Of a stretch of DNA of 59,579 bases, positions 48,811-59,579 are shown piece after piece (within the stretch, counting starts at the first letter, position 1; each line of letters begins with the position of its first letter). The position numbers and the translations under genes were made by a program. The notes below the pieces were generated by a model, which had not been told where the DNA came from, ran no database searches, and saw only the letters and a list, made by a program, of their open reading frames with translations. The DNA comes from Endomicrobium sp. (GTDB lineage: Bacteria > Elusimicrobiota > Endomicrobiia > Endomicrobiales > Endomicrobiaceae), in assembly GCA_031286985.1 (NCBI GenBank), contig JAITTL010000015.1, positions 1 to 59,579 of the forward strand. The letters run 5' to 3'.

Positions 48811-51282
48811 ATGCTTATGGAATTAATATTTGGCAAAGTTTTTCATTTTTTGTTTTCCATTACAAATTCCTATGGTTGGGCAATTCTGCTCATATCGGTA
48901 TCAGTCTCCATTGTGTTGATGCCTTTTTATCATATCACGAACATCTTAGAAGATAGAGAAAAAACTATTCGTTTAAAGTTGCAGCCATACATTTTAAGAA
49001 TAAGTAAAATTAAGAATGCGCATGTTAAATATCATCATTTGTCAAAGTTATATAGGTCGTATAACTATTCGCCGATTATGTCGTTACGATCGTTGTCGTC
49101 TTTAGTAATACAAGTTCCGTTTTTTATTGCTGCCTATCAAGTGTTGAGTAAAGTATTGGTTGCGAACTCATATAATTCGGAGATGTTTTTTTTGTTTATA
49201 AAGAACTTGGGTTTGCAGGATAATTTGATTGGCGGTGTAAATTTGTTGCCAATTTTGATGACGGCAACCAATATATTGGCTGTGATGTGTATGACTCCTT
49301 TTTCCAAGGAAAGAAGACAAGGTTATATCATAGCTGTTTTGTTTCTGATATTGTTGTACATGTCTCCCGCAGGGCTTGTCTTGTACTGGACAGCGAACAA
49401 TTTTATTAACTTATTGCGGTATTTGTTTGTCTATTTGAAAGGTAAAAAATTCTTGATGATTAAACATACAGTGATAAACTGCTTTTCACTCTTGGCAAAG
49501 AACGTATTCGTCAGGGTTTTCCTATTTTTAATTTCCGCTTATTTTGCAGTTAATACAATGGTACCTATTGAAAAGAGCATCACTAAGTACAGTAACGCTA
49601 TAGTTTTACCTTTGTATATTTTGTTTTTCCTGAAGTTATACGATCATAAAATTATTAGATCACACATGACTAGAAATGGAAAAATACGACTATTGTTGAT
49701 CATATTGTGTTTCGTAGTATCGTGTTTTGTGAAAAGATGGGAAAAAGTACATTGGTTATCTGCTGCTTTGACATTGCTTGTAGTATGCGACCACAGAAAT
49801 ATAAAAATTGTCAAAATTAAAAAAATACTTAAATCTTTAACCCTACCTGTTGTAGGTATGTTGTTTCCAGCTATTTTGTATGCAAGATCTAACCTAATAT
49901 ATATTAACGGATATGGTATTTACACCTATTTTTTAATGCTTATTTTTATTGCTTGTTTTGTTCCCCCAGTGACGTATGTGTATAACACTAGTTGTTCGAT
50001 GTCTAAAATTATAAAAATTTCACTATCCTTTGTATTAGCTACGATGTTTTTACCTTTGATACGGGAGGTTATTAAACATACAGGTAGTTTGCCATATGAT
50101 TTTATATTTTTGTTGTTTATAGTTTACTTTGTGCTTGACTTATTTTGGAAAAAAAAGAAGATAATATTTATATTTTTCTTGGGTTCTATAATTTTTCTAC
50201 TTTTTTCTAAAATTGATTTGACCATGAAGAAAAACGTAGCAGAAGTTGCTGTAGAAGTTCCCGAAGAATTGTTGACTATGTCAATGAAAGATACGCCGAC
50301 AGTATATCTTTTTATGTATGATTCATTTCCACATAAAGAGTTGATTGATGAACTGGGTTTAGACAGAAGCGAATTGGATGATTTTTTATGTGAGTATCAG
50401 TTCAAGGAATATGATTTATATTCCGTTGGGTACTATACTCTGGGAACTATGGCGCAAGTTTTCAACATACATAGGATACAAGATACGGATACGGATAATG
50501 CTCTTAGAAAAATTCTTGGAGGAGATAACTTAGTTAGCATCTTATTCGAAAAATATGGTTATGATAATTTCATCTCAACTGGTTGCGATAATTGCTGGCT
50601 ATTTCCAAGTGCTGATCGTATAAAATATAAACTTGTAGGTAGGGATGATGAAAATAGTCTTTCAAATTCTTTGAGCTTAGTTTATACGATTTTAAAGGGA
50701 AAAATGAATTGTATGTTAAGAGGAAATCCTAAGGTTAGAGACGCATGTTGTGATCTTTCAAAATTTGCTAATAGTAACGGGAACCGCAGTGAAATATTTG
50801 CTTGGGGGGTGAGTGATTATCCTGGCCATTCATCTCTTAGTGGGAGAGGTTTTAGCTATGAATTTAAACGTTGGAAGCCAATATTTTATCAGTCTATACA
50901 GAATATGAAAAAAGATTTAAAATTAGTGATTAACAGTAACCCTGATGCCATAGTAATATTGATGAGTGATCATGGGCCGTGTTTACTTGATGATGCCAGA
51001 AGAAGATATCCATCATTAAGGGACGATCAAATAAGACATATTCATTTCCGCGATATGTTTGGAGCGTTTATGGCAATACGGTGGCCAAACAAAGAGCGTG
51101 CCGCGAAATACGACAAAGAATTCAATATAACACAAGATTTATTTCCTATAGTGTTTGCATACTTATGTGATTCTGCAATTCCGTTAAAATATAAGATAAA
51201 AGATACTGCAGTAAGAATACGGGATCATAGGTTTGACAAAGGCGTGTTTTATCCGAATTCATATAAAAAGGAAGAGAAATAG
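48811..51282 (+). CDS. Fusion: YidC/Oxa1-like domain + polytopic region + alkaline phosphatase/sulfatase-superfamily domain
   Basis: N-term LKLQPYILRISKIKNAHVKYHHLSKLYRSYNYSPIMSLRSLSSLVIQVPFFIAAYQVLS...MSPAGLVLYWTANNFINLLRYLFVYLKGKK resembles YidC; C-term TVYLFMYDSFPHKELIDEL...DAIVILMSDHGP resembles sulfatase/alkaline phosphatase superfamily; single uninterrupted 823-aa ORF. Confidence 0.82.
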   Translation: MLMELIFGKVFHFLFSITNSYGWAILLISVSVSIVLMPFYHITNILEDREKTIRLKLQPYILRISKIKNAHVKYHHLSKLYRSYNYSPIMSLRSLSSLVIQVPFFIAAYQVLSKVLVANSYNSEMFFLFIKNLGLQDNLIGGVNLLPILMTATNILAVMCMTPFSKERRQGYIIAVLFLILLYMSPAGLVLYWTANNFINLLRYLFVYLKGKKFLMIKHTVINCFSLLAKNVFVRVFLFLISAYFAVNTMVPIEKSITKYSNAIVLPLYILFFLKLYDHKIIRSHMTRNGKIRLLLIILCFVVSCFVKRWEKVHWLSAALTLLVVCDHRNIKIVKIKKILKSLTLPVVGMLFPAILYARSNLIYINGYGIYTYFLMLIFIACFVPPVTYVYNTSCSMSKIIKISLSFVLATMFLPLIREVIKHTGSLPYDFIFLLFIVYFVLDLFWKKKKIIFIFFLGSIIFLLFSKIDLTMKKNVAEVAVEVPEELLTMSMKDTPTVYLFMYDSFPHKELIDELGLDRSELDDFLCEYQFKEYDLYSVGYYTLGTMAQVFNIHRIQDTDTDNALRKILGGDNLVSILFEKYGYDNFISTGCDNCWLFPSADRIKYKLVGRDDENSLSNSLSLVYTILKGKMNCMLRGNPKVRDACCDLSKFANSNGNRSEIFAWGVSDYPGHSSLSGRGFSYEFKRWKPIFYQSIQNMKKDLKLVINSNPDAIVILMSDHGPCLLDDARRRYPSLRDDQIRHIHFRDMFGAFMAIRWPNKERAAKYDKEFNITQDLFPIVFAYLCDSAIPLKYKIKDTAVRIRDHRFDKGVFYPNSYKKEEK

Positions 51283-54388: not shown

Positions 54389-54500
54389 AATGGCGTGTGA
54401 TGTGAGTAAAGGAGAAAATCCTTCTTGTCTCTTTTGAAGTTTATATGTTGATGTGGTAAATCACTATAGGACAAATCCTATAACTAGCTGATGATATGTG

Positions 54501-54974
54501 GAGAGTTTTTGTCACCTAATCCAAAAGATGTGTCGATATTCAAGATATGTGGAAGCTTTGGAATATGTGATTAAAAAATTTAAGCAAGAGTTATAAGATG
54601 AAGTAGGCATACGAAATGTTCTGTAGACAATTTTCATTCAACTGAAAAAATTTGAATATGCTATTACTCCGTGGCATCCGTTACAATAGTTATCTGAAAA
54701 GACGGCAACAGTAAATTGTCTAAAATCGGGGTATTTGCATTTAGCAGATAATGGATTGTTTATGTTTGACATTTAGTTCAATGAATCATGATCAAGATTG
54801 ATTAGGGAAGGAGACGGTGATATATTTTGCTGTGTGGAGATTATTCACTCAGTTATAAGTTGTCATGTGGATGCAAGTAAAAATATATTCAGTACAATTG
54901 ATGAATTGCAGAATTATCAAAAATTGAAAAGATATTATATGTTGTGTCCTGAGGAAATTTTAAATTTGAATTAG
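54501..54974 (+). pseudogene. Decayed coding region with multiple in-frame stops
   Basis: One frame reads ESFCHLIQKMCRYSRYVEALEYVIKKFKQEL*DEVGIRNVL*TIFIQLKKFEYAITPWHPLQ*LSEKTATVNCLKSGYLHLADNGLFMFDI*FNES*SRLIREGDGDIFCCVEIIHSVISCHVDASKNIFSTIDELQNYQKLKRYYMLCPEEILNLN*. Confidence 0.45.
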
Positions 54975-55006
54975 ACTTTATTATTATGTATCTTTACGTA
55001 TAACAA

Positions 55007-55024
55007 CGTTTAGCGCGCTAAACG
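55007..55024. repeat. 18-bp perfect palindrome CGTTTAGCGCGCTAAACG
   Basis: Read directly from sequence. Confidence 0.9.
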
Positions 55025-55396
55025 AAGAATAAATAGCATGCAAGGGACAATGGTAGATAGGGAGTCAGCTGTAGATTGCTTGTTGAGTTCAGATCTGATA
55101 TTTCACAATGGTCAATCGTTGATGGATTTATAGGGTTGAGTTGTATTCAGATTATTTAGCTAAAGTTAATAGCAGTAAGTTTTGTACCGATATTTTTGAT
55201 AAAGTAGAGAAAAAAAGATATTTTAAAAGATCATTAGATTATCATCAAATAGGTTCGATGAAAAAATCGGTTTTAAGACTGCGGGAGTATTGCGCAAAAA
55301 TATGTTTTTTGCTATTTTTGGGACAATAAAATGATTTGTAATATTTTACGTGAAGCATTACAGGCTAAAGTGGTTCTCAATAAATAGCGTTGTAGA

Positions 55397-56770
55397 TTGG
55401 TTTCGAAAAAAATTAACGTAAATTTGAAAAAAATATTGGAAAATGTGTCTTGTAAGGGGGGCATTGTGAAAAGAAGGACAGTTTATTTGGGAATGATTGG
55501 TGATATCATTCACCCCGGCGTAATTAATATTATACGTGAGGGATCAAAATATGGAGATGTGTTAGTTGGTCTTTTCACTGATGATAGTATTGCGTCCCAT
55601 AAACGCTTGCCATATCTTAATTATGAACAGAGAAAAGCCGTAGTTGAAAATATAAAAGGTGTAATCAGAGTTGTACCTCAAGAAGAATGGAGTTATGTTC
55701 CGAACTTGCTTAAATATCGTCCTGATGCGATTATACATGGCGATGATTGGAAAAACGGACCGGATAGCCAAGAGCGCGATGCTGTTTTTAAAGTTATGCA
55801 AGAATTTGGCGGTGAAGTAATAGAAATTCCTTATACACAAGGTATTAGTTCATCAGGATTAAATAAGGATATATTATCTATTGGCACAACGCCTGGTATA
55901 AGACTTAAAATGTTGCGTAGATTATTAAAGGCAAAACCTTTGGTTAGAATCATGGAAGCTCATTCTGGCCTTAGCGCTTTGATAATTGAGAATGTTGAAA
56001 TTGCTAAAGGAAACGGAATACATAATTTTGATGGAATGTGGTCTTCAAGCCTTACAGATTCAACAAGTAAAGGTAAACCAGACATAGAAGCGGTAGATTT
56101 GACTACCAGATTGCAAACGTTAACTGATATTTTAGAATGTACCACAAAACCAATTATTTTTGATGGTGATACTGGAGGCAAGCTTGAACACTTTGTCTTT
56201 GCAGTGCGTACGTTGGAGAGAAACGGTATTTCAGCTGTTATTATTGAAGATAAAACAGGGTTAAAGAAAAATTCTTTATTTGGTACAGAAGTCAAACAAG
56301 AGCTTGCTCCTATATCGGATTTCTGCGCAAAGATAGCCGCTGGGAAAAGAGCGCAAGTAACGCAAGATTTTATGATAATTGCAAGACTTGAAAGTTTGAT
56401 TGCTGGTGGTACGGTGGAAGAAGCGCTTGTTAGAGCAAGAGCTTTCGTTGGCGTGGGAGCAGATGGAGTTATGATACATAGCAAAGAAGAAACAGGAGTT
56501 GAAATAAAAAATTTCTGTGAAAAGTTTCGCGGTGAATTTCCAAATACTCCTATCGTGCTTGTGCCTACTACGTATAATCAGTTTAAAGAAAAAGAATTTG
56601 TGGAATGGGGTGCCAATATTATTATCTATGCAAATCATATGCTTCGTTCATCGTATCCAGCTATGTTAAATACTGCAAAATCTATTTTGGAAAACGAGAG
56701 ATCACTAGAAGCGGATAAATTTTGTATGCCAATAAAGCAGATATTGGAACTTATTTCAGGTGGTAAATAA
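55397..56770 (+). CDS. aepX: Phosphoenolpyruvate phosphomutase with N-terminal cytidylyltransferase-like domain
   Basis: N-term YLGMIGDIIHPGVINIIREGSKYGDVLVGLFTDDSIASHKR...; C-term IMEAHSGLSALIIENVEI with PEP mutase signature IIEDKTGLKKNSLFG. Confidence 0.93.
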   Translation: MVSKKINVNLKKILENVSCKGGIVKRRTVYLGMIGDIIHPGVINIIREGSKYGDVLVGLFTDDSIASHKRLPYLNYEQRKAVVENIKGVIRVVPQEEWSYVPNLLKYRPDAIIHGDDWKNGPDSQERDAVFKVMQEFGGEVIEIPYTQGISSSGLNKDILSIGTTPGIRLKMLRRLLKAKPLVRIMEAHSGLSALIIENVEIAKGNGIHNFDGMWSSSLTDSTSKGKPDIEAVDLTTRLQTLTDILECTTKPIIFDGDTGGKLEHFVFAVRTLERNGISAVIIEDKTGLKKNSLFGTEVKQELAPISDFCAKIAAGKRAQVTQDFMIIARLESLIAGGTVEEALVRARAFVGVGADGVMIHSKEETGVEIKNFCEKFRGEFPNTPIVLVPTTYNQFKEKEFVEWGANIIIYANHMLRSSYPAMLNTAKSILENERSLEADKFCMPIKQILELISGGK

Positions 56771-58859: not shown

Positions 58860-59579
58860 GTGAGAGTAGTTTTTGAATTGGGAAATAGAAAGGTAAGAAT
58901 GTTTGTATTTTTGTGCTTCGTGTGTGTGATTGTGGTGGGTCTGTTTAGTGGAAGAGCCCGAGCAGCAAAAAACGAAGAAGTACTGATACATTTAACAAGC
59001 AAACACAAAGTTCGATGGGGAGGAGAGAAATCAGGAGACAAAGTAACAAACCTGTCTATAGGAATGCAGGCAGAAATACGAGAAAAAAGAGAAATAGTGA
59101 TAAGTGGGCTAGATGGAGCCCCATTGCCAAGAGATAGAGATATAAAGGCAAGGGTTCTCGGATGCGAACTGGCGATAAAAACCTCAGGAGAAAACCACAG
59201 GGTAGTTGGGATAGTTGGAGTAGGAGCATACAGTTTGGCAGTGGAAGAAGGAAGAATAAAAGTGAATATGCAGGATGGAACGGAACTGTCAACAGAGACA
59301 AAAATAGGGGTCTCAGGCTTCCCACCACGCCCACGCCCACTACGGCAACTGCGGCGACGACTGCTGGACACATTCAATGATGGGGTTGATGATTTTCCTC
59401 CGCCGCTGGACACAGACACCCCCAATCCGCGGCTGGACACAGACACCCCCCCAATCCGCGGCTGGACACAGACACCCCCAATCCGCGGCTGGACACAGAC
59501 ACCCCCAATCCACGGCTGGACACAGACACCCCCAATCCACGGCTGGACACAGACACCCCCAATCCACGGCTGGACACAG
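58860..59579 (+). CDS. Secreted protein with C-terminal 9-aa tandem repeats (open at window end); not in ORF track
   Basis: GTG start 8 nt after GGGGAG, TATAAT at 58821; VRVVFELGNRKVRMFVFLCFVCVIVVGLFSGRARAAKNEEVLIHLTSKHKVRWGG...; 182 codons with no stop before the repeat array. Confidence 0.6.
   Translation, partial: MRVVFELGNRKVRMFVFLCFVCVIVVGLFSGRARAAKNEEVLIHLTSKHKVRWGGEKSGDKVTNLSIGMQAEIREKREIVISGLDGAPLPRDRDIKARVLGCELAIKTSGENHRVVGIVGVGAYSLAVEEGRIKVNMQDGTELSTETKIGVSGFPPRPRPLRQLRRRLLDTFNDGVDDFPPPLDTDTPNPRLDTDTPPIRGWTQTPPIRGWTQTPPIHGWTQTPPIHGWTQTPPIHGWTQ
59406..59579. repeat. 27-bp tandem repeat array CTGGACACAGACACCCCCAATCC(G/A)CGG, at least 6.4 copies, continues to window end
   Basis: Units start at 59406, 59433 (29 bp, C7 instead of C5), 59462, 59489, 59516, 59543, 59570. 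Confidence 0.97.

Follow-up and report, generated by a model that had tools for sequence, protein, structure and literature searches.

The window, by which we mean the whole stretch of DNA analysed (59,579 nucleotides of contig JAITTL010000015.1 from an Endomicrobium sp.), contains a single intact open reading frame of 823 amino acids beginning with ATG, located exactly where the first-pass annotation had placed it. In its product a YidC/Oxa1-like domain is followed by a polytopic middle region and a domain of the alkaline phosphatase (AP) superfamily (Table 1). An artefact resulting from a lost stop codon or faulty assembly was ruled out, the identical architecture being open in independent genomes. 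Within residues 224-469, hydropathy and the model helices indicate approximately nine hydrophobic helices, in keeping with the polytopic region recognized earlier, and a KKKK loop precedes the last of these. Because of this loop and the positive-inside rule, the C-terminal domain is predicted to be extracytoplasmic.

Table 1. Features of the fusion gene and of the adjacent operon genes in the window.
Feature	Position	Strand	Basis
Whole fusion gene: YidC-like domain, polytopic linker, AP-superfamily domain	48811..51282	+	Single ORF; full-length relatives have the same layout
YidC/Oxa1-like domain, residues 1-212	48811..49446	+	PF02096, Foldseek YidC folds, clade, conservation
Polytopic middle region, residues 213-487, about nine TM helices	49447..50271	+	Hydropathy and model helices
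AP-superfamily (EptA/LtaS/YejM/sulfatase-type), putatively catalytic domain; D504, T543, H673, D720, H721	50272..51279	+	Profile, fold, conservation
TagB-like CDP-X phosphotransferase, 427 aa, N-terminal YLDPGTG membrane segment	51285..52568	+	PF04464, E 7.4e-11
PntC (NTP_transf_3)-PhnW (2-aminoethylphosphonate aminotransferase) fusion, 610 aa	52556..54388	+	PF12804, E 3.3e-9; TIGR03301, 372 bits, above cut-off
Cytidylyltransferase-like domain-PEP mutase fusion, 457 aa, EDKTGLKKNS motif	55397..56770	+	TIGR02320, E 2.3e-119, above cut-off
Phosphonopyruvate decarboxylase, 373 aa	56771..57892	+	TIGR03297, E 1.2e-142, above cut-off

The phosphonate genes that had been reported beside the fusion are indeed adjacent to it. 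All of the genes expected for the synthesis of 2-aminoethylphosphonate (AEP), namely those for PEP mutase, decarboxylase and transaminase, and for its activation with CTP (PntC) are located in the operon, and the PEP mutase motif given in Table 1 is of the EDKX5NS type, the Ppm motif (PMC6697681). The operon is thus predicted to specify a complete route to CMP-AEP, matching the Pnt logic described in the same paper. The PF04464 match of the TagB-like protein scores 42 bits against a cut-off of 22.1, and its YLDPGTG and RPHP motifs are kept in 59 homologues. No glycosyltransferase or acceptor gene is found in the window's operon; the Spirochaete loci contain many glycan genes. Within the phosphonate operon approximately 1 kb (54389-55396) is without a convincing gene, and the genes flanking this gap are adjacent in relatives; a search of the gap for remnants of the neighbouring proteins found none. 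A 27-bp tandem repeat of 6.6 copies occupies the end of the window (59399-59579) and lies within an open frame, where it reads as repeated WTQTPPIHG/WTQTPPIRG.

The YidC/Oxa1-like character of the N-terminus, proposed in the first pass, is confirmed by the HMM search: PF02096 matches residues 21-207 (E 3.4e-19; 69.8 bits against a curated cut-off of 35), and is likewise matched by 45 of 45 relatives. Comparison with the solved YidC 5y83 using phmmer gave an E value of 3.4e-12, and Foldseek aligned the model of the window protein with YidC structures 3wo7 (TMt 0.66) and 3wo6 (TMt 0.70), and also with 6al2 and 6y86. Since the match to the NCBIfam YidC model TIGR03592 (E 8.7e-17; 61.8 bits) lies under that model's cut-off of 84.3 bits, we assign the fused domain to the YidC superfamily and do not regard it as an ordinary YidC. 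A tree of YidC domains places the fused and split copies on one side and 19 housekeeping YidCs on the other, with a branch support of 100/100. The position of the groove arginine is occupied by Ser in the window protein and by Ser, Thr or Asn in 131 of 134 fusions. The same position is Gln in the 17 Elusimicrobial copies, so that Arg is not universal in true YidC; the housekeeping YidCs of Elusimicrobiota with Gln include L004-L020 and L162.

The YidC-like domain is the most conserved portion of the protein. Between the Endomicrobia and the relatives outside the Fibrobacterota, identity amounts to 38.7% in the YidC part, 13.7% in the linker and 13.9% in the AP domain, and the dN/dS values of the window gene against that of genome G010 are 0.14, 0.26 and 0.22, respectively. 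Several residues, among them Y86, T151 and N154, are invariant in the fused clade only. These data bear on the earlier suggestion that the YidC-like part has been repurposed as a mere membrane scaffold for the enzyme. Known AP-superfamily transferases also possess transmembrane anchors, as such a scaffold would lead one to expect; anchors, however, diverge fastest, yet the YidC part is the slowest-evolving across five phyla and has its own family-specific invariant residues, and the middle region already provides nine helices as an anchor of its own. Because it is the most conserved part and carries invariant polar residues of its own, a passive scaffold is disfavoured, indeed distinctly improbable, and the YidC-like part resembles an active module more than an anchor.

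A housekeeping YidC accompanies the fusion in genome G000 (C28) and in 11-12 of 13 genomes checked; in one of the 13, G349 (Bacteroidales), no housekeeping YidC was found above threshold. The copy at G000:C28 rules out the fusion as that cell's sole YidC, and, a housekeeping YidC being also present, the fusion is not the only source of insertion. Treponema putidum also has the YidC-like and AP parts encoded side by side in separate genes, which branch within the fused clade; because these split genes adjoin and have this placement, the two parts seem to cooperate both as a fusion and as individual proteins. At this locus (L100, 9905-20563) short YidC-like genes (221-367 aa) alternate with AP-domain genes, some of them possibly broken. 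Adjacent separate genes are what one would expect of two cooperating parts, and they would also fit an arrangement in which the AP domain is a transferase and the YidC-like domain a dedicated insertase or chaperone for the polytopic linker or for a partner such as the TagB-like protein. The YidC five-helix fold and cytoplasmic hairpin are kept, and the high conservation of the YidC part fits a working insertase equally well. The cell, however, already possesses a housekeeping YidC, and the groove Arg has given way to Ser, Thr or Asn in essentially all fusions, although the latter is a weak test given the Gln of the Elusimicrobial housekeeping proteins. We consider a dedicated insertase rather unlikely.

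The C-terminal part of the window protein has no Pfam or NCBIfam match of its own, and PF00884 is matched by 23 of 45 relatives at E 1e-3. Sulfatases, LtaS and MCR-1, and also phosphonate monoester hydrolases, are recovered with a profile constructed from 45 relatives. With the AlphaFold model of the window protein (pLDDT 76.7), Foldseek identified YejM, MCR-1, ICR and EptC at E values of approximately 3e-4 to 6e-4 and LtaS at 1e-3, while for the Treponema lecithinolyticum homologue, whose model is better (pLDDT 86.8), E values of 3e-7 to 9e-6 were obtained against LtaP, PbgA, phosphonate monoester hydrolases, MCR-1 and EptA. When the AP subfamily of the window was compared alone with the PDB only weak matches resulted (best 0.01); the assignment of the AP fold is based on the profile of the wider family and on the models, and hhalign links the C-terminal domains of the Endomicrobia and Fibrobacterota with those of the Spirochaetes and others (E 5.7e-7, probability 92%). 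Profile and models agree with the sulfatase/phosphotransferase-like domain that had been proposed for this region. Because phosphonate monoester hydrolases are also among the matches, the fold, by analogy, can handle phosphonates.

The MYDSF and SDHG motifs, already singled out in the first-pass annotation as resembling metal ligands, contain D504 and D720-H721, which, with H673, are invariant in 45 of 45 aligned fusions; T543 is present in 44 of the 45. This pattern, for which the correspondence was established by alignment and not from coordinates, is that expected for a Thr-nucleophile, metal-dependent enzyme. The nucleophile of sulfatases is a formylglycine derived from Cys or Ser, and the EptA and LtaS transferases use Thr. 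From fold, residues and context, the AP domain probably transfers a head group via T543. AP-superfamily domains also hydrolyse, and the profiles score higher against sulfatases and phosphonate monoester hydrolases than against LtaS or MCR-1, which would suit a hydrolase that trims or recycles glycans or lipids decorated with phosphonate or phosphate. The Thr at the nucleophile position, as in EptA and LtaS and not of the formylglycine type, and the location of this membrane-bound protein among biosynthesis genes make a hydrolase quite unlikely.

Scanning the genomes of 85,462 species for relatives yielded at least 77 loci, at least 71 of them with the full fusion, and on sequence grounds these form one large family spanning at least five phyla. 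Among the matches listed, Spirochaetota are foremost, accompanied by Fibrobacterota, Bacteroidales and Azohydromonas, and 35 of 71 loci harbour two or more copies of the fusion. Ninety of the 145 Treponemataceae genomes drawn contain the family, often in several copies and frequently arranged in tandem. In the Elusimicrobiota the C-terminal part was matched in 10 of 341 genomes: nine belong to the fusion family, two of these with fragments only on contigs, and the tenth (G041) has an AP domain without YidC. Fibrobacterota copies are placed among those of the Endomicrobia in the YidC-domain tree, which suggests transfer between gut bacteria. A viral origin was ruled out; phages and plasmids gave plain YidC-like matches only, and viral_contigs searched with P0001 and A1 (Endomicrobiaceae alignment) contained no relatives. 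The fusion gene of G289 (L044, 9974-12474) has an in-frame stop and a frameshift in its YidC part and is either a pseudogene or an assembly error. We found no description of the fusion family in the open-access literature, and it is apparently undescribed, each of its parts deriving from a known superfamily.

The constant partner of the fusion, which the first-pass annotation had missed, is the TagB-like transferase: among the matches listed, its gene is present in 38 of the 42 fusion loci that extend over 18 kb or more, and it is found in Azohydromonas too. The genes that supply the donor vary. Among the 71 listed loci, which were picked by similarity to the window, so that percentages describe close relatives, 20 contain PEP mutase, 14 an NTP-transferase/CobD-like PLP fusion, and four a TagD-like cytidylyltransferase with a class-V aminotransferase. 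In the Endomicrobium relatives G010, G013 and G289, an aminotransferase/TagD-like pair replaces the phosphonate genes behind the fusion and TagB-like genes; a class-V aminotransferase and TagD-like cytidylyltransferase are located at L033 13967-15503. The NTP_transf_3-CobD/HisC-like PLP fusions (for instance L065 15400-17388 and L058 16622-18454) may, at a guess, make a CDP-aminoalcohol such as CDP-ethanolamine. The neighbouring Treponema proteins of 610-680 aa are not LicC-choline kinase fusions, Pfam identifying in them NTP_transf_3 and a CobD/HisC-like PLP domain. At L033 (8187-10139) and L035 (5313-7274) the dxs gene, for 1-deoxyxylulose-5-phosphate synthase, lies directly upstream of the fusion; it is absent there in the window, and the synteny may be due to chance.

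With p-values that are optimistic, related genomes having been treated as independent, the fusion occurs in 40 of 46 Treponemataceae genomes with PEP mutase versus 50 of 99 without (p 1.8e-5), and in five of 12 Elusimicrobiota genomes with PEP mutase versus four of 329 others (p 2.5e-6). Half of the Treponemataceae PEP mutase genes (24/48) have a fusion no more than 12 kb away. PEP-mutase genomes that lack the fusion number 6/46 and 7/12 in the two groups, and many fusions occur without PEP mutase. The phosphonate linkage claimed at the outset therefore holds in other genomes, with phosphonate as one of several donors: judged by gene content, at least three cassettes for cytidylyl-activated donors can stand in for one another, the phosphonate genes being the most frequent. 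A function exclusive to phosphonates is ruled out by the other cassettes, and because the same gene pair adjoins these elsewhere, the fusion is better described as putatively serving cytidylyl-activated aminoalkyl phosphates and phosphonates in general.

The fusion is probably part of a system of cell-surface decoration. We propose, from the sequences and models and with about even confidence and doubt, that it is an envelope head-group transferase fed by the TagB-like enzyme, its YidC-like domain passing or presenting lipid. PEP mutase, decarboxylase and transaminase would make AEP, which PntC would activate with CTP. At the cytoplasmic face the TagB-like enzyme, whose use of CMP-AEP we infer from its family and linkage, would move the AEP head group to a lipid or lipid-linked carrier. 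The YidC-like domain would then let the lipid bearing the head group reach the outer face, or would present it. Outside, the AP domain would take the head group on Thr543 through its metal site (D504, D720 and H721, with H673 nearby) and hand it on to a glycan or lipid of the envelope, much like EptA/MCR-1, which transfer phosphoethanolamine, and LtaS, which transfers glycerol phosphate. Where relatives have a different cassette, the aminoalkyl phosphate used would differ too. The CMP-AEP could already be spent on a glycan by the TagB-like enzyme, leaving the AP domain another job.

A lipid-passage role is proposed because lipid scrambling in liposomes is documented for purified YidC of E. coli and for further members of the Oxa1 family (PMC10491306). 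This property is common to all Oxa1 proteins tested and is not proof of a lipid role in the fusion; that the YidC-like part passes or presents a lipid-linked donor is a tentative suggestion. Just as speculative is the wider idea of a general system of envelope decoration, built on a YidC/Oxa1 domain that has become a dedicated module for lipid or head-group passage and is joined to an extracytoplasmic transferase: in at least five phyla and with exchangeable donors, a single polypeptide would carry a cytidylyl-derived phosph(on)olipid through the membrane and attach its head group at the surface.

How bacteria complete phosphonate tailoring once CMP-AEP has formed is described as unknown (PMC6697681), and the fusion family with its TagB-like partner offers concrete candidates, in Treponema, Endomicrobium and Fibrobacterota, for these last steps. 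It also presents an Oxa1-superfamily domain under strong constraint outside the housekeeping role, and the movement of lipid by insertases becomes testable in a setting where it could be the main job.

With the YidC/Oxa1 insertases the fused domain shares the five-helix core, the cytoplasmic hairpin and the fold (TMt 0.66-0.70 to Bacillus halodurans YidC); it differs in forming a separate clade, in the replacement of the groove Arg and in being joined to an enzyme. Unlike these insertases, the fusion does not occur as sole YidC in any genome with an identifiable housekeeping copy. The membrane AP enzymes nearest in fold, among them the phosphoethanolamine transferases (EptA, MCR-1, EptC and ICR), the lipoteichoic acid synthases LtaS/LtaP, and YejM/PbgA, resemble the fusion in having an AP domain after transmembrane helices, in the Asp/Thr/Asp-His pattern and in fold, but identity is only approximately 10%, and the fusion adds the YidC-like module and the nine-helix linker; unlike those systems, it has a TagB-like partner gene and CTP-activated donors. 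That partner has in common with the TagB/TagF CDP-glycerol phosphotransferases a GT-B type Glyphos_transf domain and the RPHP motif, and differs in its YLDPGTG membrane segment and in its linkage to CMP-AEP or aminoalkyl donors instead of CDP-glycerol. The Pnt clusters of Rice et al. 2019 (PMC6697681) share with the window the PEP mutase-cytidylyltransferase fusion, PntC-PhnW and the decarboxylase. That paper names no final transferase, and YidC and sulfatase are absent from its main text; for one group of these clusters, the fusion and TagB-like pair would be candidates to supply the missing steps.
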